A stretch of DNA of 35,795 nucleotides from an uncultured Holophagaceae bacterium (GTDB taxonomy: Bacteria; Acidobacteriota; Holophagae; Holophagales; Holophagaceae), in NCBI GenBank assembly GCA_903873655.1, contig CAIQPH010000077.1:1-35795 (forward strand). The letters run 5' to 3'. The stretch's first letter is position 1. Every line of letters begins with the position of its first letter. Positions 17,878-27,577 of the stretch are shown piece by piece. Position numbers and translations under genes: made by a program. The notes under the pieces were generated by a model that worked only from the letters and a program-made list of their open reading frames with translations, searched no databases and was not told the DNA's origin.

Positions 17878-18858
17878 CTACTTCGCCGGGCTGCCGCCCT
17901 TCTCGTGGCAGCCGAGGCAGGTGGCCAGCTTGGGATCCGGGCTGCGCCAGTAGACGCTGTCCTGGTTGCCGAAGTCCTTCTGCAGCGCCTCGGGTATCCG
18001 GGCCCAGTAGAAGGCGAAGGCGGTGGACCCATCGGCCTTGGTCTCCTTCATGTAGAGCGGACCGGGTTCGGTGCCTGGCCTGCCCTTGACGTCGGAGAAA
18101 GTGGACATGACGGCGTAGGCCCCCGGGGGCAGCGCCTTGCCGGCCTTATAGGCGTCAATCCCGGAAGCCGTGACCCAGACCCTTCGCCAGCGGTCACCGT
18201 GGGCCTTGCTGCGAATCGGATCAGGCTCCGCAGGTTCCAGGCTGGCATAGTCCAATGCCCTGATCGGCAGGTCAGCCTCAAGGTCGTTCCGTTTGGCCTT
18301 GTCGGCCTCGGCAGCAGCCTTGTTGGTCTCCTCGCTGCCGAAGACCATGATGCCGCCCAGCTTCCCGCTGAAGCCCCAGCAGCCGAGCCAGATCAGCCCC
18401 ACGAGCAGGGCCGGGGCCCCTACGCCCCGTTCCCAGAAGCGGCGACCCGCATGATGCCGGTGGTCTTTCCCATCAGCCCCGACATGGCTATCCCGGCGCC
18501 AAGTCCGCCACAGGAGGAAGGCGCACAACCCACCCACAAGGAAGCCCGCCAGGGCAGCGAGGATATGGACCTGCAGAATCCGCTGCAGCACCTGTTTCTC
18601 GCTGGCGACCACCGGGATGAAGCTCGAAGGGCCGATCAGGTTGATCTGGCGCCCCCAGACCAGACCGCTGAACAGGGCGATGGTGCTGGCGAGCCATCCA
18701 ATGGCGGCCAGGAAGAAGGACGTGGCCAACAGGGACCTTCCCTGGCGGTGGAAGGAGCCCAACATGGCCACTGGAAGCGCTGCCACCAATCCCAGGGGGA
18801 GGTGAACGAAGGCCGGGTGCTCCCGGGCGATGAATTCGATCAGGGGCGATGCGGTCAT
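17878..18858 (-). CDS. Membrane protein with DUF2231-like N-terminus and cytochrome P460-type C-terminal domain
   Basis: This 326-residue protein is the last gene of the cytochrome operon. The N-terminal ~170 residues have four hydrophobic helices, with HPAFVHLPLGLVAALPVAML at the start typical of DUF2231 membrane domains. A His-rich linker (GADGKDHRHHAGRRF) follows the third helix. The C-terminal ~130 residues look like a cytochrome P460 domain: WRRVWVTASGIDAYKAGKALPPGAY, YMKETKADGSTAFAFYWAR, and a terminal haem c site CLGCH about 13 residues from the end. The P460 part would sit in the periplasm and could pass electrons to or from the cytochromes encoded upstream. The ATG at 18858 follows TGGAG and lies 12 nt after the barrel gene. 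P460 enzymes oxidise hydroxylamine, but that activity should not be assumed here. Confidence 0.82.
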   Translation of the reverse strand: MTASPLIEFIAREHPAFVHLPLGLVAALPVAMLGSFHRQGRSLLATSFFLAAIGWLASTIALFSGLVWGRQINLIGPSSFIPVVASEKQVLQRILQVHILAALAGFLVGGLCAFLLWRTWRRDSHVGADGKDHRHHAGRRFWERGVGAPALLVGLIWLGCWGFSGKLGGIMVFGSEETNKAAAEADKAKRNDLEADLPIRALDYASLEPAEPDPIRSKAHGDRWRRVWVTASGIDAYKAGKALPPGAYAVMSTFSDVKGRPGTEPGPLYMKETKADGSTAFAFYWARIPEALQKDFGNQDSVYWRSPDPKLATCLGCHEKGGSPAK

Positions 18859-18870
18859 GGCACTCCAGGG

Positions 18871-19740
18871 TCAGAAGATGCGGGTGACGTTGAACCCGAT
18901 GGACCAACTCGCCGATGGGCGGGGACCGCCACCGTAATCACCGCTCAGCACCTGATTGGCGGTGGTGCCGATGACGTTCGTGCCGAACAGCGAGAACCGG
19001 TGCTTGAAGGTCTTGTAGGAGACCCCGGCGGCGAATCCGTTCTGATAGGTGGAGCCGTCCGTGCTGCCTTCTGGGGCCGCCTTGGAGAACTTGGAGGGCC
19101 GGGGATAGTACTCCGTCACCACCGAGAATTTTTCGGTGAGGTTGGCGCGGAGGCCAACCCCCACATTGAAAACACCGCCGGTGTTGGGTGTCGTATTCGG
19201 TGTGGCACCCGGAGGAACGGCCAGGATGGTATTCGTCGTGGTGGTCTTGGTGATGTAGGTGGGCACTAGGGAGAAGATGATGTCATCCGTGATGAAAATT
19301 TCCGTGGGCACCTGAAAGGTCCCACCGAAAATACCCACCCTTCCCAGGGGTGTGATGGTCCCCTTCACCACTTCGTCGAACCGCTCCGCCCGGAGTGCCA
19401 TCCGCACGCGGTCGCCGTTCAGCACCTGCTGTTGCAGGCCCAGGGTGAAGGTCTTGTTGTCCGGCGTGCGGTAGATGAAGGCATTCAAGCCCTTGATCGG
19501 CTTGATACCGAAGGTGAACCCGATCCCGGAATAGGTATAGCCATCCAGACCGTAGACATCCTTGCCGTGGCCCTGCACGGGCTGGACGAACCGGTGGGTG
19601 AAAGCCATGCCGATGTCCCAGAACTGCATCCGTTCAGCACTGGGGAGGTTTAGCACCAGAGGAACCTCTGACGATTCGGCATGGAGCGCTCCCCCAGCCA
19701 GGACGGCGCAGGCGAGCAGAGGGGCGGTCTTCCGTGTCAT
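18871..19740 (-). CDS. DUF5777-like outer-membrane beta-barrel protein
   Basis: This 289-residue protein has a signal peptide (MTRKTAPLLACAVLAGGALHA) and then alternating strand-like segments. These include MQFWDIGMAFTHRF, DVYGLDGYTYSGIGFTFGI, FTLGLQQQVL, RVRMALRAERF and the terminal SASWSIGFNVTRIF, which ends in Phe as outer-membrane barrels usually do. The FGLD-type segment and the HRF block resemble the DUF5777 barrel family. The ribosome site AGGAGA is 5 nt before the ATG at 19740, and the gene is 16 nt from the cytochrome c gene. By position it may be the outer-membrane channel or anchor of the multihaem cytochrome, as in porin-cytochrome conduits. That is inference; about 12-16 strands is my rough estimate. 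Confidence 0.8.
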   Translation of the reverse strand: MTRKTAPLLACAVLAGGALHAESSEVPLVLNLPSAERMQFWDIGMAFTHRFVQPVQGHGKDVYGLDGYTYSGIGFTFGIKPIKGLNAFIYRTPDNKTFTLGLQQQVLNGDRVRMALRAERFDEVVKGTITPLGRVGIFGGTFQVPTEIFITDDIIFSLVPTYITKTTTTNTILAVPPGATPNTTPNTGGVFNVGVGLRANLTEKFSVVTEYYPRPSKFSKAAPEGSTDGSTYQNGFAAGVSYKTFKHRFSLFGTNVIGTTANQVLSGDYGGGPRPSASWSIGFNVTRIF

Positions 19741-19756
19741 CGGGTCTCCTGAGTGC

Positions 19757-20107
19757 TTACTTGGCCGCAAACTTGCGCATGATGGGAATCATCTTTTCGA
19801 CATCCGCCGGGGTCATCTTGTCCTTGAAGGCGGGCATCTTGTCCTTGCCGTCCAGGGTGATCTTGATCCAGTCGCCATCCTTCTTCTTGTTCGCCTTGCG
19901 ACTGTCGGTGAAGTCGAAGCCGTTGTCGGGAAGCGGCTTGCCGTTGTTGTCACGGCCACTGCCGTTCGCACCATGACAGCGGGCGCAGGCATCATTCCAG
20001 TACTTCTGGTAGTCGCTCCCCGAGAACTTGGGCAGGTCCTTGGCAGCGTCACTGGCGAACAGGGGCGCACCCATGAGGAGCAGGGAGGAAAGGAAGATTC
20101 GACGCAT
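19757..20107 (-). CDS. Small monohaem cytochrome c
   Basis: This 116-residue periplasmic protein has a signal peptide (MRRIFLSSLLLMGAPLFA), one haem c attachment site CARCH near residue 41, and a class I fold pattern with DKMPAFKDKMTPADVEKMI near the end. The Met of KMPAF is the likely distal ligand. It would shuttle single electrons in the periplasm. The ATG at 20107 has an AGGAGA site 5-6 nt before it; the longer frame upstream of it has no sensible signal. It sits 41 nt after the giant cytochrome gene and 16 nt before the barrel gene, so it is probably part of the same operon. Confidence 0.92.
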   Translation of the reverse strand: MRRIFLSSLLLMGAPLFASDAAKDLPKFSGSDYQKYWNDACARCHGANGSGRDNNGKPLPDNGFDFTDSRKANKKKDGDWIKITLDGKDKMPAFKDKMTPADVEKMIPIMRKFAAK

Positions 20108-20148
20108 GCAGTCTCCTGTGGAGTGGTTGAGTGATACCGAGTGATGGC

Positions 20149-21057
20149 TCAGTTCCATTTGTTGTTGCTGGCGGTGTGGGTCTGACCATGGCAGCTGAGG
20201 GCGCAGCCACCCTTGCCTTCAGTTGTTGAGGTCACGGTATACGTCTTGGCGCCGGTGGGCGTGGTTCCGAAAACGATCGTGTCGCTTGGATACTGGTCAG
20301 AAGGCGTGCCACTGACACCGCTGACGGCGGTGGTGTCGAGGTATTTGAAGTGGTTTCCAACGGTATTGGTGATTCTACTGGTGTTATTGAGATGCCCACC
20401 AACCATGTCGTGGCAGGTGTCACAGGTCGTATTGTGGGCACTCGGGCTGCTGTGCCGACCCGTGAGAGCGTTGTACTCGGGCGCCGAGGTGGAGGCAATT
20501 TTGTGACAGGCGATGCAGTAGGTATTGGCGTTCACAGGGTTGGTACCTGATTGCCAGCCGGGCGTGGTCTGACCCCCGTGGCAGCTGATGTTGGAGCAGG
20601 TGAACTGGGTGGCGCTGGCGGTGTAACCAGCCACCGAGGCCTGCGAGTTGAAGGTCGGATCGACGGACACCGAGGCTGGGCCCACCGTGACGGGTGTCGC
20701 GAGCCGCTTGTTGGCATTGCTGTAGTGAGTCTGGGCTGAGTCGTAGGGCACAGAGCCCACGTGGCAGGCTTCGCAATCGGGATAAGCCGAGGCCGTCAAG
20801 CTGGTTGGCAGGGCCGGTGTGGTCCGAGTGAACGTCAGCAGGGCAAGGTGCTTGGGATGCGCACCGGCCAAATTCGGCCAGGCGGCGCCGGTGGGTCCCA
20901 CGGTGGTGAAGTTGGAGCCGGTGTGGCAGGAAAGGCAGGTGCCCACGCCTAGCCCTGCTGTCAGGGGCGAGCCAAGGATGTGGCAGACGGTGCAAACGGG
21001 ACCGGTCTTGGTGGTGCTCCCGGACTGATCGTGACAGTTGATGCATTCCCCCTCGAA
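20149..21057 (-). repeat. Cytochrome repeat unit 3 (302 codons, ends with gene)
   Basis: Third eight-haem unit, beginning FEGECINCH. It carries sites CINCH, CTVCH, CLSCH, CEACH, CSNISCH, CIACH, CDTCH and CALSCH. It stops about 13 residues short of a full unit, right after the terminal CX3CH site, so the protein ends at a natural repeat boundary. Confidence 0.85.
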
Positions 21058-23667
21058 CTGAGCCTGGGTGAGGGTCTGGTGGTGATTCCCGAGGGTACTC
21101 TGGCTCGTACTCAGGTAGGGGATGGGATGGGCCACGCCTGATCCTTGGGGAGCGGTCCAGTGGTTCTGCGTTGAGGAGGCCACATGGACCTGGGTGTGGC
21201 AGGTCAGGGCACAACCCCCATCACCTTCCGGCAAGGACAAGGCCGGGTTGATGACATAGGGGGGAGTGCCTAAGGCGGAGATCGGGTAGCTAGTGGTGTT
21301 CTTGAACACCACGGTGCCGCTGGGCAGCTTCGTGGCGCTGGTGACAGCATGGAGATTGAGCTGGGCGAAGTGGTTCACGGCCCCCAGGTTGGCATTGGCC
21401 GAAGTCATGTCGTGGCAGATGGTGCAGTCAGTAGCGGCCGCTTGGGCGTGGGTGCCGTAGGAATGGCGGCCGACAGCATCGTTGTACTGCGAGCTGGTGG
21501 TGCCGCCATTGACCTTGTGGCACGAAGAACACTGGGTGGTGATCTTGGTGGTACTGGTCCAGTTGGGTGTGGTCTGTCCACCGTGGCAGCTCGCGTTGGA
21601 GCAGGTGTTCGAGGACCCATTGAACACCGCCGTTCCCGCACTCTTGGCGTTGTAGGCGGGATCAAAGCTCACGGGAGCGGGTCCAGCAGGAGTGCTGTTC
21701 CGGGCATTCGCATTGTTGTAGTGAGTCGCACTGCCGGTGCTGCTGCCTGCATGGCAGGTGACACAGGTCAAGGCGGTGGGCAGCGTCATATGGGTGTTAT
21801 GGGCACCCGCGATGCTGGGGAAAGTGCCACCGGTCGGGCCATTGGGGAGGCTGGATGGGCCTACATGGCAGGACTGGCAGGTGCCATTGCCATTCCCCGC
21901 GAGAGTGGGGTCGGCCAGCTTGTGGCAGATCTGGCAAGCAGGGGCCGCCGAATTGGGCGAGGTGCCAGAAATGGCATGGCAGACCTTGCAATCCGCCGTG
22001 AAGATGGCCAGGGTAGCGGTCATGTGCCCATTGCCCTGGGTATCTGGGGCACTGGTGGACAGAAAAGGTACGGGATGGGGGGCGCCGCTGGACTGCCAGG
22101 TGTCGAGCGGAGCGCCAGTATGGATGTGGGTATGGCAAGTCAGGGCGCACCCGCCGTTGCCCTCTGTGGCGCTGGTCACGGCGTAGGTTCCGCCGGTGAC
22201 GATGAGGGGGTCGAAGACGATGGTGCCACTGGGCATCTGGTCTGCAGGGCTTCCAGTGGAAGCACCATCAACCGCCTCGGTATCAAGGTACTTGAAGTGG
22301 GCCGAAGCCCCAGGGGAAGTGCCGTTGGTCATGTTGTGGCAGGTGGTGCAGGCGATGCCGTTGGCCACCACGGTGGTATTGTGGGTGCCCTGACTGTGAC
22401 GGCCGAAGGCGTCATTGAACTGAGTGATGGTTCCCGCGGCGGCGGCCACCCCGTGGCACATGGTGCACTGCGTACTCGAGTTGATGGATCCGCTCTGCTG
22501 CCAGCCAGGTGTAGTCTGGCCGCCATGGCAACGCACGCTGGAACAGTTGAGCTGCGATGGGCTAAAGGTGGGGTTGCCACCCGTGAGCGAGCTGAAGATG
22601 GTATTGATCGAGACGGTGGCGGGACCTGTCGCAGGAGAGGCGATTCTCTGATTGGCATTCGCGTAATGAGTGGTGGTTCCGCTCCCGGCGCCCGCGTGGC
22701 AGGTGTCGCAGGTCAGCTGGGTGGCCAGGGCCATGTGTTTGAGGTGAGCACCAGCCAGGCTGGGGAAGGCCGAGCCCGTGGGCCCGCTCGACAGTCCGGC
22801 GGCTCCCGCATGACAGGACAGGCAGGTTCCCGCATCGGTGCCGGAGGCCGTAGGATCCGCCAGCTGGTGGCAGACATTGCAGAGCGGGGCCGAAGCCAGA
22901 GGCGAGCTGCCGCTATAGGCATGACAATGGGCGCAATCGGCAGTGAAGGCGCTGACCGTGACGGTCAGGTGGCCATTCAGGCTGGAGTCGGTCTGCCCTG
23001 CCAGGAAGGGAACGGCGTGAGGCGCGGCATTGGCGCCGTGACACAGCGTGGCGTTGTAGCAGCCAGGCTGAGTGCCCGCCGGGGCGGGAGAAACTGGATG
23101 CCCGGCCGGATTGTTGGGGGACCCGGCATAGTGGCACTGGGCACAGACGGCGGCATTGGATGGATCAGTCGTGGCGTGGTTGTAGGCGGACCCGCCGGAA
23201 GTGCGCCAGGGCTTGGGCGGATGGGGCGCCTGGGCGCCATGGCAGGCGGAGCAGGCACTGGCCGACGCCCCGCCCGAGAAATCCCTGGCGTGGCAGATCT
23301 GGCAGGACACTAGACTCCCTCCCGTCGTGGGATCGGCAGCCATCTTGGCCCGCACGCCGTGCAGGGCCGGGTTGGCAAAGCCGGGTGTCGACTGGTGGTG
23401 GCAGCCGCTGGTCATGCAGGTGGGAATGCCGCTGCCCACTCTGAGGATGGAGACTTCATGGCACTTGGTGCAGGCATCGACGCCTTGAACGGCCTGTCCG
23501 CCGTGGGCATTTATCCAGCCAGTGGGATGGTAGTCGCCGTAGTACTGGGCCACGCTGTTGGAACCCTTGCCGCTTCCACAGCCCAGCAGGAGGAAGACCG
23601 AAAGCGCAGAGCAGATCAGGGGCCAGAAGCAGCTTGGTTTCTTGTTCCAACACCATTTCCTAGGCAT
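20149..23667 (-). CDS. Giant multihaem c-type cytochrome lipoprotein (about 30 haem sites)
   Basis: This 1172-residue protein has a signal peptide ending in a lipobox (LLLGC near residue 30), so it should be lipid-anchored, perhaps at the outer membrane. I count 22 CXXCH sites plus eight wider ones: four CX4CH (CMTSGCH, CSSVRCH, CSNASCH, CSNISCH), three CX3CH (CALTCH twice, CALSCH) and one CX5CH (CYNATLCH). The head (residues 1-240) has six sites. Three units begin at residues 241, 556 and 871, each with the order CXXCH x4, CX4CH, CXXCH x2, CX3CH. The CX4CHGGQTTPxW...CXXCH block is the signature of Geobacter-type CxxxxCH/CXXCH proteins. The ATG at 23667 follows AGGGGA; the longer frame lacks a better site. 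It heads a four-gene operon and is divergent from a two-component pair. The function is probably long-range or extracellular electron transfer, by inference. Confidence 0.92.
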   Translation of the reverse strand: MPRKWCWNKKPSCFWPLICSALSVFLLLGCGSGKGSNSVAQYYGDYHPTGWINAHGGQAVQGVDACTKCHEVSILRVGSGIPTCMTSGCHHQSTPGFANPALHGVRAKMAADPTTGGSLVSCQICHARDFSGGASASACSACHGAQAPHPPKPWRTSGGSAYNHATTDPSNAAVCAQCHYAGSPNNPAGHPVSPAPAGTQPGCYNATLCHGANAAPHAVPFLAGQTDSSLNGHLTVTVSAFTADCAHCHAYSGSSPLASAPLCNVCHQLADPTASGTDAGTCLSCHAGAAGLSSGPTGSAFPSLAGAHLKHMALATQLTCDTCHAGAGSGTTTHYANANQRIASPATGPATVSINTIFSSLTGGNPTFSPSQLNCSSVRCHGGQTTPGWQQSGSINSSTQCTMCHGVAAAAGTITQFNDAFGRHSQGTHNTTVVANGIACTTCHNMTNGTSPGASAHFKYLDTEAVDGASTGSPADQMPSGTIVFDPLIVTGGTYAVTSATEGNGGCALTCHTHIHTGAPLDTWQSSGAPHPVPFLSTSAPDTQGNGHMTATLAIFTADCKVCHAISGTSPNSAAPACQICHKLADPTLAGNGNGTCQSCHVGPSSLPNGPTGGTFPSIAGAHNTHMTLPTALTCVTCHAGSSTGSATHYNNANARNSTPAGPAPVSFDPAYNAKSAGTAVFNGSSNTCSNASCHGGQTTPNWTSTTKITTQCSSCHKVNGGTTSSQYNDAVGRHSYGTHAQAAATDCTICHDMTSANANLGAVNHFAQLNLHAVTSATKLPSGTVVFKNTTSYPISALGTPPYVINPALSLPEGDGGCALTCHTQVHVASSTQNHWTAPQGSGVAHPIPYLSTSQSTLGNHHQTLTQAQFEGECINCHDQSGSTTKTGPVCTVCHILGSPLTAGLGVGTCLSCHTGSNFTTVGPTGAAWPNLAGAHPKHLALLTFTRTTPALPTSLTASAYPDCEACHVGSVPYDSAQTHYSNANKRLATPVTVGPASVSVDPTFNSQASVAGYTASATQFTCSNISCHGGQTTPGWQSGTNPVNANTYCIACHKIASTSAPEYNALTGRHSSPSAHNTTCDTCHDMVGGHLNNTSRITNTVGNHFKYLDTTAVSGVSGTPSDQYPSDTIVFGTTPTGAKTYTVTSTTEGKGGCALSCHGQTHTASNNKWN
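21058..22002 (-). repeat. Cytochrome repeat unit 2 (315 codons)
   Basis: Second eight-haem unit, beginning FTADCKVCH, exactly 945 nt long. Sites are CKVCH, CQICH, CQSCH, CVTCH, CSNASCH, CSSCH, CTICH and CALTCH. Shared landmarks with the other units are GPTG..FPS.AGAH, HYNNAN, CHGGQTTP and NDAVGRHS. Confidence 0.88.
22003..22947 (-). repeat. Cytochrome repeat unit 1 (315 codons)
   Basis: First eight-haem unit, beginning FTADCAHCH, exactly 945 nt long. Sites are CAHCH, CNVCH, CLSCH, CDTCH, CSSVRCH, CTMCH, CTTCH and CALTCH. The order and spacing of sites match units 2 and 3, indicating internal duplication of an ancestral eight-haem domain. Confidence 0.88.
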
Positions 23668-23771
23668 GAAAATTCCCCTGTGAGATGGGCGGCTGGTTGA
23701 TGACTGGGAGAGGGACCAATAGTCTGCCATCGGCTTGTCACGGAACGAGCTGAAGAAGAAGGAAACCGTTT

Positions 23772-23799
23772 ATTATTTTCAATCCCAGGTTCGGGGCAA
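23772..23799 (-). promoter_or_regulatory. Possible sigma-70-type promoter for cytochrome operon
   Basis: On the minus strand, TTGCCC (23799-23794), a 16-nt spacer and AATAAT (23777-23772) match -35/-10 consensus moderately (the -10 matches 5 of 6). It lies in an AT-rich patch and would give a leader of roughly 100 nt before the cytochrome ATG at 23667. Assignment by eye only. Confidence 0.35.
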
Positions 23800-23896
23800 G
23801 GGTTCTTGTCCTGACAGAGATGGAAGCAAAATTGGCTTGTCCATCCACTATCGCCAACAAGACGCCATGGGAACATATCTCGAATGGTTGCTTATT

Positions 23897-23916
23897 GTTA
23901 GATCTTTGGATCTAAC
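23897..23916. promoter_or_regulatory. Palindromic candidate operator upstream of histidine kinase
   Basis: A perfect inverted repeat, GTTAGATC-TTTG-GATCTAAC, lies in the 296-nt divergent gap between the giant cytochrome and the kinase, 47 nt before the kinase ATG. TTGCTT at 23888-23893 and TCTAAC at 23911-23916, spaced 17 nt, could form a promoter that the palindrome overlaps. A dimeric regulator such as the NarL-type protein encoded downstream is a natural candidate to bind it, but this is inference. The rest of the gap is AT-rich non-coding DNA. Confidence 0.5.
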
Positions 23917-23963
23917 CCATTTCCATTGATTCGGTCCGGCAAATGGCCTAATCTTCAGCTTCC

Positions 23964-26936
23964 ATGCACTCGCGAATGACAGGACACCGTTCTTCCCGCA
24001 GGGGAGTCCTGCGATGCCTTGCCATCGCCTTGGCTTGGCTGTGCATGACGCTCCCGGTCCTGGCATTGGATCCATCCCGGCCACTCTCGACGCATGCCTC
24101 TCGCACCTGGCGCAGTGAGGATGGCCTGCTCCAGGATACGGCGTCGGCTCTGCTCGAATCGCAGGACGGGTTCCTCTGGGTCGGCACCGAAGCAGGGCTG
24201 GTCCGTTTTGACGGCGCCAACTTCGAGCATTACTTGCGCATCAACCTGCCTGGATTCATTCATAACGACATCCAGTGCCTGGCGGAAGGCCCGGATGGCG
24301 CCCTCTGGATCGGAACTTCCGAGCCGGGTCTCTACCGCCTCCAACGAGGTGAGATCCAAAGCTTCGGCTCGAAAGAAGGTCTGCCTGATCGGGCCATCCG
24401 ACGCCTGCTTCGCGATCACAGTGGCACCTTGTGGGTGGCGCCCGTGGAGGGGTCCCTGCTTCGATTCGACGGGGTACGTTTCCAGTCTGCGTCCTCGGAT
24501 GCGGTGCACATGCGGATCCGGGCGCTCGCAGAGGACCCGGAAGGCACGATCTGGGTGGGCACGGCAGGGTCAGGCCTCTGGCGCCTCCGGGAAGGTCGCC
24601 TGGCCTTGGCGGCCCTGACCGCCGCAGAGATCACCGCCCTGAGTGTGCGAGCGGACGGGGAAGTTCTGATCGGCACTCGCTCCCAGGGAGTGCAGGTGCT
24701 CACGGAGGGGCGGCTGGAAGTTCCGGTCTGGGCGAAGCAACTGCCCTCCAAGCCCATCAGTTCCCTGCTCGTGGACCGCCAGAACAGCCTATGGATCGGC
24801 CTCGAACAGAATGGGCTCTACCGCCTGAACCAGGAAGGCCGGCTCGAAGCGGCACCTGCTTCCCTCGGTTCCCGTTGGACGCCGATTTCCTTGCTGGAAG
24901 ACAGTTCCGGCGCCTTGTGGTCAGGCAGCGATGAACGGGGCCTGCGGGTCCTCTATCCAGTGCCCTTCCAGACGGTACCCGTGTGGGGTGGGGATCCCGA
25001 GGAACCCGCCCGGATGGTCTGCCAGGATGCTCAAGGGACGGTCTGGTGCCTTACTGGTGAGCAGGCCTTGGGCAGGATTCAGCATGGGCGCGTCGAAAAG
25101 GTGAGCCCAGGGAGCCCGACTGGCGGCCCCATCACCTCACTCTGGCCCCGGCGAGCCGGGGGCCTGTGGGTGGGTACCCGGAGCGGGGGGTTGTACACCT
25201 TGGATCAAGGCCGGTTCCACCCGGTCCGCGGGTCCGACGGTCGATCGTGGGATGCCATCGTTTCCCTCTATGAGGACCCAGGCAACGTCCTTTGGGTCGC
25301 GACCTCCCGGCAGGGCCTCGTCAAGCTGGCCCCTGACACCGCCCCCATCCTGTTCCCCGCAGTCCTGGACATCCTGGCCATGACTGGCGGCGGATCGGGA
25401 CCGCTGTATCTGGCGAGCCGCACCCAAGGACTGGGGATTCTCGAGGCCAGCCAACTCCGCTGGCTGGGCAGGACCGAAGGGCTGGGTTCCACCGGGGCCC
25501 TCTCCCTGTATCTAGACACTGAAGGACTCCTCTGGGTGGGGACCCCGGAAGGCCTGCGCATCTACCGGGAAGGCACCTTCCAGAGTTCCGCCAACCATTC
25601 CGGCCCACTGCTCCTGAGCATCCACTCGATCCTGGGCGACCCGTACGACCGCCTGTGGTTCAGCACCGGGCAGGGTGTATTCCAGATGGCGCGCGCAGCG
25701 CTCCTCCGCCGCCTGGATGAACCCGGTCCGATTCCGGCGGTGCTCCTCGATCATCACGATGGCATGCCCTCGCGGGAAACCGCTGGAGGGGCCCAACCCG
25801 TCGCGTGGCTCACCCGGGAAGGAGAGCTCTACTTCCCCACCACCCGGGGGCTGACACGGCTGGAAGGCCGCGGCGCGCCCCTCCAGGGCCCACCCTTGCG
25901 CCTGCATATCCTCAGGGCGGAAAGCGACGAAACGGTCCTGCCCGACACTCTGCCGATCCAGGTCCCCCCGGGCACCCACCGCTTCGAAGTGTATTACGCA
26001 GCCACATCTCTGACCCGGGCCGACAAAGTGCGCTTCCGCTACCGGCTGGAAGGCTGGGAGCCCACCTGGAACGACGTGGGCGACCGCCGTTTTTCGGCCT
26101 ACTCGAACCTTCCCCCGGGGACTTACCGATTCGTGCTTCAAGCCTGGCGGGTTGACGAAGAGGGACCTCCGCAAGAGCGTTCCATCGAGGTGCATGTCCA
26201 GCCTTTCTTCTATCAGCGGACAACCTTCTGGGTGCTGTGCGCCCTGGGAGCAGCCGCCTTCGCAGGCTGGCTGCATCACCTCCGGCTCCAGCAACTGGAG
26301 GCCCGTTCGGCCGTGATCTCTGAGCGGAACCGCATGGCCCGGGAGATTCATGACCACCTGGCCCAGGGTTTCACCGGGGTCCTGCTCCAACTCGAAGCCG
26401 CGGAAGCCAAACTATCCCGCATGGTAGGCGACCCGGCACCGGTCCTCACCCGTCTCGATCATGCCCGGAACCTGGCTGTGGCAAGCCTGCAGGAGGCCCG
26501 TCGCTCCGTGATGGTCCTGCGCCCGAGAAGACCAGAGGGCACGGACCTTCTGGGGGCCATGCGCCTCCTGGCGGACCGGCTCCTGGCGGGCACGGACATC
26601 CAGGTGGAATTGGCGATGGTCGGTAAACCAAGGCCGCTCCGCGAACGCACCGAAGAGGAACTCATCCGCATGGCCCAGGAGATGCTCACCAACGCCCTCC
26701 GCCACGGCAAAGCCAAGTGGGTGAGGGTGGTGCTGCAATTCGAGGCGGGGAAGGTGCACCTCAGCGTCGAAGACGACGGCAAGGGTTTCGACCCTTCAGC
26801 AGATGTCGCAGGCTATGGGATGCGCAGCATCCGTGAAAGCGTCAAAAAACTCCGGGGCCAGTTGGACATCGATAGCAGCCAAGGCCTTGGCTCCCGCATC
26901 ACCATCACCCTTCCCACCCGGAGGTGGCGTTCATGA
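23964..26936 (+). CDS. Two-component sensor histidine kinase with beta-propeller sensor
   Basis: This 990-residue protein has a signal or anchor helix (residues ~14-36) and then a long periplasmic sensor. The sensor is made of repeated two-component regulator propeller segments, such as DGFLWVGTEAGLVRFDG, DGALWIGTSEPGLYRL, EGTIWVGTAGSGLWRL and ENVLWVATSRQG-type units, to about residue 640. A Y_Y_Y domain (FEVYYAATSL ... PPGTYRFVLQA, ~672-727) and one transmembrane helix (~752-772) follow. The cytoplasmic kinase is of the HisKA_3 type: REIHDHLAQG with the phosphoryl His near 796, N-box EMLTNALRHG near 903, and DDGKGFDP with GYGMRSIRE. The protein ends with a 4-nt ATGA overlap with its response regulator. 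It is divergent from the cytochrome operon, which it may control. The start codon lacks a strong ribosome site; ATG 23976 is an alternative. Confidence 0.95.
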   Translation: MHSRMTGHRSSRRGVLRCLAIALAWLCMTLPVLALDPSRPLSTHASRTWRSEDGLLQDTASALLESQDGFLWVGTEAGLVRFDGANFEHYLRINLPGFIHNDIQCLAEGPDGALWIGTSEPGLYRLQRGEIQSFGSKEGLPDRAIRRLLRDHSGTLWVAPVEGSLLRFDGVRFQSASSDAVHMRIRALAEDPEGTIWVGTAGSGLWRLREGRLALAALTAAEITALSVRADGEVLIGTRSQGVQVLTEGRLEVPVWAKQLPSKPISSLLVDRQNSLWIGLEQNGLYRLNQEGRLEAAPASLGSRWTPISLLEDSSGALWSGSDERGLRVLYPVPFQTVPVWGGDPEEPARMVCQDAQGTVWCLTGEQALGRIQHGRVEKVSPGSPTGGPITSLWPRRAGGLWVGTRSGGLYTLDQGRFHPVRGSDGRSWDAIVSLYEDPGNVLWVATSRQGLVKLAPDTAPILFPAVLDILAMTGGGSGPLYLASRTQGLGILEASQLRWLGRTEGLGSTGALSLYLDTEGLLWVGTPEGLRIYREGTFQSSANHSGPLLLSIHSILGDPYDRLWFSTGQGVFQMARAALLRRLDEPGPIPAVLLDHHDGMPSRETAGGAQPVAWLTREGELYFPTTRGLTRLEGRGAPLQGPPLRLHILRAESDETVLPDTLPIQVPPGTHRFEVYYAATSLTRADKVRFRYRLEGWEPTWNDVGDRRFSAYSNLPPGTYRFVLQAWRVDEEGPPQERSIEVHVQPFFYQRTTFWVLCALGAAAFAGWLHHLRLQQLEARSAVISERNRMAREIHDHLAQGFTGVLLQLEAAEAKLSRMVGDPAPVLTRLDHARNLAVASLQEARRSVMVLRPRRPEGTDLLGAMRLLADRLLAGTDIQVELAMVGKPRPLRERTEEELIRMAQEMLTNALRHGKAKWVRVVLQFEAGKVHLSVEDDGKGFDPSADVAGYGMRSIRESVKKLRGQLDIDSSQGLGSRITITLPTRRWRS

Positions 26937-27577
26937 CCACAGCCCCGACCGATCGCATTCGCCTGCTCATCGTGGACGACCACCCGGTCGTGCGTGATGG
27001 CCTCGTGTCCATCCTCCACGAAGGCGAACCTGACCTCGAAGTCGTCGGGGAAGCGGGAGACGGCAAGGAGGCCGTGGTCACCTGGAGGAACCTCCGGCCC
27101 ACTGTGACGATCATGGATCTGCAACTCCCCGGCCAGTCCGGGGTGGAGGCTGTCCAGGCTATTCGCCGGGAGGATCCGGACGCCCGGATCCTCGTGCTCA
27201 CCACCTTCGATGGCGATGCCGACATCCAGCGGGCCCTGGAAGCCGGAGCCCGCGGCTACCTGCTCAAAAGCGTGCGCAGAGCGACCCTCATCGAGGCCGT
27301 GCGCGCCGTGGCCGCTGGCCAGCGCTACCTGCCCCCGGCCACGGCCGCTCGCCTGGTGGAAGCCATGGAATCAGAGCGGCTCACACCCAGGGAACTCGAT
27401 GTGCTCAAGCTGCTCGGGGAGGGTCAGCGCAACCGCGAGATTGCCGATGCCCTGGGGTTGGCGGAAGCCACGGTGAAGATCCACGTGAACAACCTGCTGC
27501 GCAAGCTCGAGGCCAAGGATCGCACCGAGGCGACGGTCATCGCCTTGAAGCGAGGCCTGATTCACCTTGGATCCTAG
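26933..27577 (+). CDS. NarL/FixJ-family response regulator
   Basis: This 214-residue protein has an N-terminal receiver domain (LLIVDDHPVVRDGL with the acidic pair Asp15-Asp16, phosphoacceptor Asp62 in IMDLQLPG, conserved Lys in GYLLKS) and a C-terminal LuxR-type helix-turn-helix (LTPRELDVLKLLGEGQ and REIADALGLAEATVKIHV). It is the cognate partner of the kinase just upstream: the ATG at 26933 overlaps the kinase stop (ATGA) and has GGAGGTG 6 nt before it. A GTG at 26924 would add three residues but loses that site. It ends in a stop that overlaps the stop of rny on the other strand (CTAG). The likely targets are the divergent cytochrome genes, by context only. Confidence 0.95.
   Translation: MTTAPTDRIRLLIVDDHPVVRDGLVSILHEGEPDLEVVGEAGDGKEAVVTWRNLRPTVTIMDLQLPGQSGVEAVQAIRREDPDARILVLTTFDGDADIQRALEAGARGYLLKSVRRATLIEAVRAVAAGQRYLPPATAARLVEAMESERLTPRELDVLKLLGEGQRNREIADALGLAEATVKIHVNNLLRKLEAKDRTEATVIALKRGLIHLGS

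Follow-up and report, generated by a model that had tools for sequence, protein, structure and literature searches.

The window, the whole stretch of 35,795 nucleotides analysed here, belongs to a Holophagaceae genome assembly of 3.47 Mb in 328 contigs. To judge by its sequence matches and by genomes of the genus with the operon at the same site, the host is probably Geothrix-like. Four genes lie side by side on its minus strand in the order giant cytochrome, cytochrome c, barrel, membrane protein, with gaps of 41, 16 and 12 nt and a ribosome site of the AGGAG/GGAG type ahead of every start. Genes for a propeller-type histidine kinase and a NarL-type response regulator diverge from them. All six were located as claimed in the original prediction, which had described the set as a possible regulated trans-envelope electron-transfer module. 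The features are listed below.

20149..23730 (-): giant multihaem cytochrome lipoprotein with 30 haem motifs, likely true start at 23667 (Pfam/NCBIfam matches and lipobox)
22972..23580 (-): fixed N-terminal block of the giant cytochrome, 6 haems, spacing pattern 2-4-2-2-2-5
22027..22971 (-): wire module A1, 8 haems, variable middle
21082..22026 (-): wire module A2, 8 haems, variable middle
20152..21081 (-): wire module A3, 8 haems, C-terminal, found in all complete orthologues
19757..20107 (-): periplasmic monohaem cytochrome c, CxxCH at 19973-19987
18871..19740 (-): DUF5777 outer-membrane beta-barrel, ATG start, modelled with about 12 strands
17878..18858 (-): inner-membrane protein, four long helices (DUF2231-like) and a C-terminal haem-c domain (P460/c'-beta-like)
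17905-17919: CxxCH of the inner-membrane protein
23964..26936 (+): two-component-propeller histidine kinase with 8 Reg_prop stretches, Y_Y_Y and HisKA_3; a neighbour, not dedicated to the operon
26924..27577 (+): NarL/FixJ-type response regulator with Response_reg and GerE; a neighbour, not dedicated to the operon
23668..23963: divergent intergenic region, which from its sequence holds the likely promoters

The similarity search yielded 30 loci, all from Holophagaceae, Geothrix or Acidobacteria. At each of them the membrane-protein gene adjoins those for the barrel and the cytochrome c. Giant-cytochrome sequence lies upstream in 29, and the gene order is kept in the same 29/30, the contig of L075 ending before the giant gene. 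Spacings are mostly near those of the window, with one larger gap in L069, L085, L087, L088 and L091. All six genes occupy the same place in 20/20 Geothrix-genus loci fetched with their flanks (the 20-locus and 30-locus sets share species and are not independent). The operon-type membrane protein occurs in 38 of 77 Holophagaceae genomes, 31 of the 47 in the genus and seven elsewhere, one of these seven with two copies; the cytochrome c is found in the same 38 and the barrel in those 38 plus one more (G323). Operon-type genes are absent from 16/47 genus genomes, some of which are incomplete assemblies. Among 396 Acidobacteriota genomes the membrane protein is present in 37, all Holophagaceae, a number that includes genomes with only a solo paralogue (see below). 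The original prediction had named a lack of conservation as a unit elsewhere as the observation that would count against it; the unit is conserved, with the three smaller genes together in 38/77 Holophagaceae, and the order and spacing of this operon-like set of redox and envelope proteins are mostly kept within the family. The four-gene set is a real unit, and its three smaller genes form a constant block. The additional barrel genome shows a different arrangement, in which a fragment of a giant gene is followed directly by the barrel, with neither cytochrome c nor membrane protein (L184/L204, G323:C30:1-2753).

The giant gene probably starts at its second in-frame ATG (23667), which has AGGGGAA in front and yields a signal peptide ending in the lipobox LLGC. 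Its 30 haem motifs comprise 22 CxxCH, three Cx3CH, four Cx4CH and one Cx5CH, and T, S, A and G account for 47% of the mature protein. It scores above the cut-offs for Cytochrom_c3_2, Mtrc-MtrF_II-IV, Cytochrome_C7 and TIGR01904, the NCBIfam model for CxxxxCH/CxxCH giant cytochromes (49.8 bits versus a cut-off of 27, in three stretches). The three 8-haem modules of this haem wire have a common spacing pattern and are 49-51% identical to one another. The pattern 2-4-2-2-2-5 of the N block recurs in 27 of the 28 loci whose giant gene is complete (the exception, L088, carries a 5-haem variant) and also opens the giant genes of four additional loci, L199-L202; the C-end pattern 22224223 is present in 28/28 complete giant genes of the 30-locus set. 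Behind the N block come zero, one or two three-haem B modules and then one to five eight-haem A modules, a description that leaves the layout of L200 outside the parsed set and treats the N part of L088 as irregular. Eleven of the 28 complete genes encode 30 haems, eight encode 17 and four encode 20, and 14, 18, 33, 41 and 49 haems occur once each; the additional loci L199, L200, L201 and L202 have 25, 39, 25 and 25. The wire consists of fixed ends and a variable middle, and ranges from 14 to 49 haems.

Related giant cytochromes also occur outside the operon. Stand-alone genes of the same modular family, with no barrel or membrane-protein gene beside them, encode 71 haem motifs in 2664 aa (L191:5939-13933 (-)) and 54 motifs each in L190:5060-11440 (-), which is a single-contig genome, and L192:6035-12262 (+). 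Single giant genes in L194 and L195 have 31 haems each, the former with a weakly similar cytochrome c on the opposite strand. The 71 haems of L191 are a large number yet no record, because the accessible part of PMC5566968 gives 85, the highest number met in the literature covered.

Haem number does not follow the partner genes. It changes at least 14 times on a three-protein partner tree of 39 rows, 37 of which have a known haem number. In a 29-row set, which leaves out the outer genera and represents the wire by its N block and last module, the haem-number labels require eight changes on the partner tree versus three on the wire tree. That wire tree unites all four 20-haem wires in one clade (SH-aLRT 99.8), a grouping that the partner data reject (p-AU 1.8e-8). 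The trees were built by a quick method and the direction of exchange is unreadable from them. The pair L074 and L077 illustrates the pattern: the flanking genes are near-identical (AlaRS 96%, regulator 97%, Rny 100% identity) and the three partners share 94-96% identity, versus 69% for the N block of the wire and 57% for its last, C-terminal module. DNA homology between the two loci stops inside the giant gene and returns in its last ∼ 500 nt. In the pairs examined the flanks side with the partners, so it is the wire that has moved. Wires have passed from species to species independently of the three-gene block. A precedent for gain and loss of haem domains in a neighbouring cytochrome is described in the available part of PMC7399161. 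Between L074 and L077 the kinase is only 78% identical, versus 97% for the regulator, and so diverges much faster in otherwise near-identical surroundings.

Assembly collapse was considered as a source of the wire variants and rejected for the 17- and 20-haem forms, in which a different 3-haem module is present; 17 haems are also found in Geothrix isolates. It was likewise rejected for the 30-haem wires of single-contig genomes. The single 14-haem wire (L079, a metagenome assembly) may be a collapse.

The barrel of the window (289 aa) matches Pfam DUF5777 (PF19089) with 72.3 bits (cut-off 23.1), and the same Pfam search gave no match to MtrB_PioB (PF11854). An AlphaFold model built from 24 sequences (pLDDT 67) contains 12 strands of at least six residues and three short ones. 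Its fold resembles KdgM (Z 18.4, rmsd 2.1 over 166) and the COG4313 channel (Z 18.4, rmsd 3.9 over 211), with NanC lower; sequence identity to these proteins is 8-10%, and the Foldseek TM-scores are ∼ 0.5 or less by query length. A search of solved structures by sequence gave no useful match for the barrel, the giant cytochrome or the membrane protein. With about 12 strands and a KdgM-like shape, the modelled barrel seems to offer too little space for a haem wire of the kind that MtrB encloses. An MtrB-like sheath was rejected on strand number, in a model of moderate confidence, and the picture of a barrel with a haem wire inside is supported neither by this KdgM/NanC/COG4313-like model nor by an operon with no periplasmic multihaem cytochrome.

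These data bear on whether the operon encodes a trans-outer-membrane conduit of the MtrCAB/PCC3 kind, in which the barrel would enclose a cytochrome and the giant lipoprotein would form the terminal wire on the outside. With its barrel, its inner-membrane protein and its multihaem lipoprotein, the operon covers much of the PCC3 part list given in the accessible part of PMC5566968, and exposure at the surface would agree with a wire that evolves fast and is swapped. We nevertheless regard such a conduit as unlikely: the barrel has ∼ 12 strands versus 18 in ExtB, 21 in ExtE (PMC6148476, available part) and up to 42 in PCC3, the operon offers only the monohaem cytochrome c where MtrCAB-type systems have a periplasmic multihaem partner, and the membrane protein is devoid of the HX13H pair that is the inner-membrane hallmark of PCC3. 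Porins of the MtrB_PioB type are themselves rare in the family. PF11854 matches were found in 3/77 Holophagaceae genomes, one of them among the 38 with the operon, and a search of the window's own genome gave none; the matching loci are L206-L209 (G160:C7, G339:C63, G010:C164).

DUF5777 is present in 118/396 Acidobacteriota genomes. We fetched 20 further DUF5777 loci, 18 of them outside Holophagaceae, and in 8/18 of the latter a domain with a haem motif, CxxCH or CxxxxCH, precedes the barrel in the same protein as an N-terminal fusion (L166, L167, L168, L169, L170, L171, L177, L181); C..CH is invariant in an alignment of these eight. Seven more of the 18 have a haem motif in the adjacent upstream frame (L182 is doubtful), compared with a background of 32/625 frames, a loose count since frames were taken from stop to stop. 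In L183 the neighbour of the DUF5777 barrel is cupredoxin-like. Because the barrel is so often fused or adjacent to a haem motif in other Acidobacteriota, a barrel with one haem is probably the more ancient arrangement, to which Holophagaceae would have added the giant wire, as far as can be judged from sequence comparison. Against this, a paralogue of the barrel within Holophagaceae (∼ 42-51% identity) has no cytochrome neighbours in five annotated loci (L051, L054, L058, L060 and the distant L061), and since these relatives stand apart from cytochromes, a barrel of the DUF5777 family can work without this chain.

A single N-terminal haem domain fused to a barrel is the layout of Cyc2. The fusions with their invariant C..CH could therefore point to a Cyc2-like unit, in which the monohaem cytochrome plugs the small barrel, electrons cross the outer membrane through its one haem and the giant lipoprotein is an electron store behind or in front of the barrel. 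There is hardly space for a haem within 12 strands, and the cytochrome encoded here is separate, soluble and of class I type, so that we consider this arrangement quite improbable. The window barrel and its eight relatives match no cytochrome-porin family in NCBIfam, a library that may lack a Cyc2 model. The accessible part of PMC5566968 describes Cyc2 as a cytochrome c of the outer membrane, with a haem motif near the N terminus that is common to its homologues.

The monohaem cytochrome c matches Cytochrome_CBB3 (38.7 bits, cut-off 27), and Met91 and Met98 are invariant among its orthologues. The membrane protein had been predicted to combine a membrane part with a P460-type haem domain. Matches that would fit this assignment come from relatives rather than from the window protein, which falls below the Pfam cut-offs both for Cytochrome_P460 (PF16694, 15.5 bits versus 27) and for DUF2231 (PF09990, 18.2 bits versus 26.4); at E<=0.1, 10/20 orthologues match the former (best 4.2e-4) and 18/20 the latter (best 3.4e-5). 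The model (21 sequences, pLDDT 72.6) shows four long membrane helices, one further helix and a C-terminal alpha/beta domain that carries the CxxCH. Across 21 orthologues five histidines are invariant, three within the helices (14, 19 and 98), one in the soluble part (220) and one in the CxxCH (318); a b-haem held between the helix histidines is a guess. The fourth helix contains an SGXXG motif, and HX13H is absent from the window protein. Split matches had suggested that one genus encodes the protein as two genes; this was rejected, as L199, L200 and L202 encode it in a single frame.

A haem-crosslinking lysine is the defining feature of cytochrome P460. There is no invariant lysine in the haem domain across the 21 orthologues, and a cross-linked P460 cofactor is therefore unlikely. 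The best Foldseek match of the model is cytochrome c'-beta of Nitrosomonas europaea, at a non-significant E of 0.029, with cytochrome P460 lower in the list; VIA-align returned helical bundles, many of them designed and uninformative, with no P460/c'-beta fold among its best 50 matches. That the operon serves nitrogen-oxide or hydroxylamine handling around this domain, the giant cytochrome acting as an electron sink and respiration to the outside playing no part, is very improbable: the Foldseek match and the ten Pfam matches lend it some colour, to be set against the non-significant E value, the missing lysine and a conserved block that contains no nitrogen-oxide gene. A solo paralogue of the DUF2231-P460 type is present in most Holophagaceae, including the window's own genome (G000:C155:5320-6240, L122), and has no multihaem neighbours in the five annotated loci (L122, L123, L126, L128, L129), which, like the lone barrels, counts against a role in the proposed chain.

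The divergent kinase and regulator had been proposed to control the operon. Either gene is present in 22 of the 30 loci, and contig edges cut four of the other eight (L062, L067, L070, L075). In the more distant genera the operon stands without the pair where the flanks are in view (L082, L088, L090, L091) and likewise in L199-L203 and L205. Of these, L203 shares its genome with L090 and L205 with L082, and the only similar genes near L200 are distant relatives of the kinase (29%) and regulator (38%). We searched six Geothrix-genus genomes without the operon for its flanks and found both in five (G315 was without Rny and a full AlaRS). The flanks of G008 are on different contigs, and in the four genomes with both flanks on one contig (L210-L213) a kinase (51-62% identity) and a regulator (82-86%) lie between AlaRS and Rny in 4/4. 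Pair and operon are separable both ways, because each is found without the other. The neighbouring pair was accordingly rejected as a dedicated link, and the proposed dedicated regulation fails, the pair being kept without the operon in 4/4 cases and the operon without the pair elsewhere. Control of the operon by the pair in Geothrix is possible, though unsupported by co-inheritance. The divergent intergenic region of the window contains a perfect inverted repeat (23898-23915, 7-nt arms, 4-nt spacer) that was not found in five other loci scanned, and it was rejected as a conserved operator.

Taken together, we think it reasonably probable that the genes form a cell-envelope electron-transfer operon in which a constant base carries an interchangeable wire and the barrel is not a sheath for haems. 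The inner-membrane protein would take electrons at the membrane and pass them to its own periplasmic c-haem. The class I cytochrome c would then ferry them over the periplasm and might dock at the barrel's periplasmic opening, a role suggested by the fused barrel-haem proteins of other Acidobacteriota. Electrons may be stored in the lipoprotein wire or conducted along it over a long distance. For the barrel, the most likely role would be that of a small-solute pore admitting soluble acceptors or redox shuttles, or of a docking base. The most likely path would thus run from membrane protein to cytochrome c to giant lipoprotein, and the barrel would serve as a pore or a docking site.

For the crossing of the outer membrane we favour a pore for solutes or shuttles. 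Geothrix fermentans is cited, in the accessible part of PMC5732950, as a user of secreted redox-active molecules. Such a physiology and the small barrel would agree with a periplasmic reductase chain that has a small-solute pore of its own, and the repeated swapping of the wire would agree with surface exposure; sequence by itself gives no choice between these two pictures. We speculate, tentatively, that a 12-strand DUF5777 barrel together with, or fused to, one c-haem could be an undescribed outer-membrane redox unit of Acidobacteriota, to which Holophagaceae would have added the inner-membrane haem protein and a socket for modular wires; wire length (14 to 49) would be reset by recombination between species, much as surface antigens are, and electrons would leave by a path other than a sheathed haem wire.

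The carriers of the set are soil and sediment bacteria of the Geothrix family, and Geothrix is a known iron reducer. The operon is a concrete candidate for part of its iron-reduction chain, given that MtrB-type porins (PF11854) occur in just 3/77 genomes of the family, and it gives a functional lead for the DUF5777 family. It also provides a natural series of haem wires of different lengths on one constant base, in which close relatives differ mainly in the wire, and the effect of wire length on electron transfer is therefore directly testable. A full-text search of openly available papers found none on DUF5777, and the combination of DUF2231 with cytochrome gave one unrelated database paper. 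The titles and abstract openings of the papers found on Geothrix, P460, multihaem cytochromes and barrels contain no description of the cluster, and within the literature covered we met no precedent for whole-allele exchange of a wire at a constant operon. Two features look new: the independently moving variable wire, and the pairing of barrel and haem across Acidobacteriota.

Among known systems, the KdgM, NanC and COG4313 channels have the barrel fold in common with the DUF5777 protein, and a shared fold proves no function. Cyc2 resembles the fused DUF5777 proteins in combining one haem domain and one barrel at the outer membrane. Its barrel is larger than the ∼ 12-strand DUF5777 barrel, and Cyc2 differs further in oxidizing Fe(II) and in having no giant cytochrome partner. 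MtrCAB and the Ext/Omc systems of Geobacter likewise place an outer-membrane lipoprotein multihaem cytochrome next to a barrel, but their barrels are larger and stand beside a periplasmic multihaem cytochrome, unlike those of the window operon (PMC6148476, available part). In Burkholderiales, according to the accessible part of PMC7399161, large neighbouring cytochromes of 24 and 49 haems differ between close relatives by haem-domain indels, with the porin and the other cytochrome 96-98% identical; that case concerns three genomes and an OmbB-like porin with 20 or 24 predicted strands, and the same part describes no whole-allele exchange.

The closest likeness is to PCC3, as described in the available part of PMC5566968. 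There too a giant repeat cytochrome rich in small residues, a barrel and an inner-membrane protein of ∼ 300 aa are encoded in one cluster, and haem numbers span a wide range (extracellular median 34, maximum 85). The repeat architecture and composition of the giant cytochrome match the description of the PCC3 giant cytochromes, a likeness and not a homology comparison. PCC3 differs in its large porin of up to 42 strands, compared with ∼ 12 here, and in having a periplasmic multihaem cytochrome in place of a monohaem one; its inner-membrane protein has five helices and two HX13H motifs, of which the window protein has none, with SGXXG in common (PMC5566968). The statement that this combination is not one of the well-known conduits holds, though PCC3, as far as that source describes it, has the same general logic.
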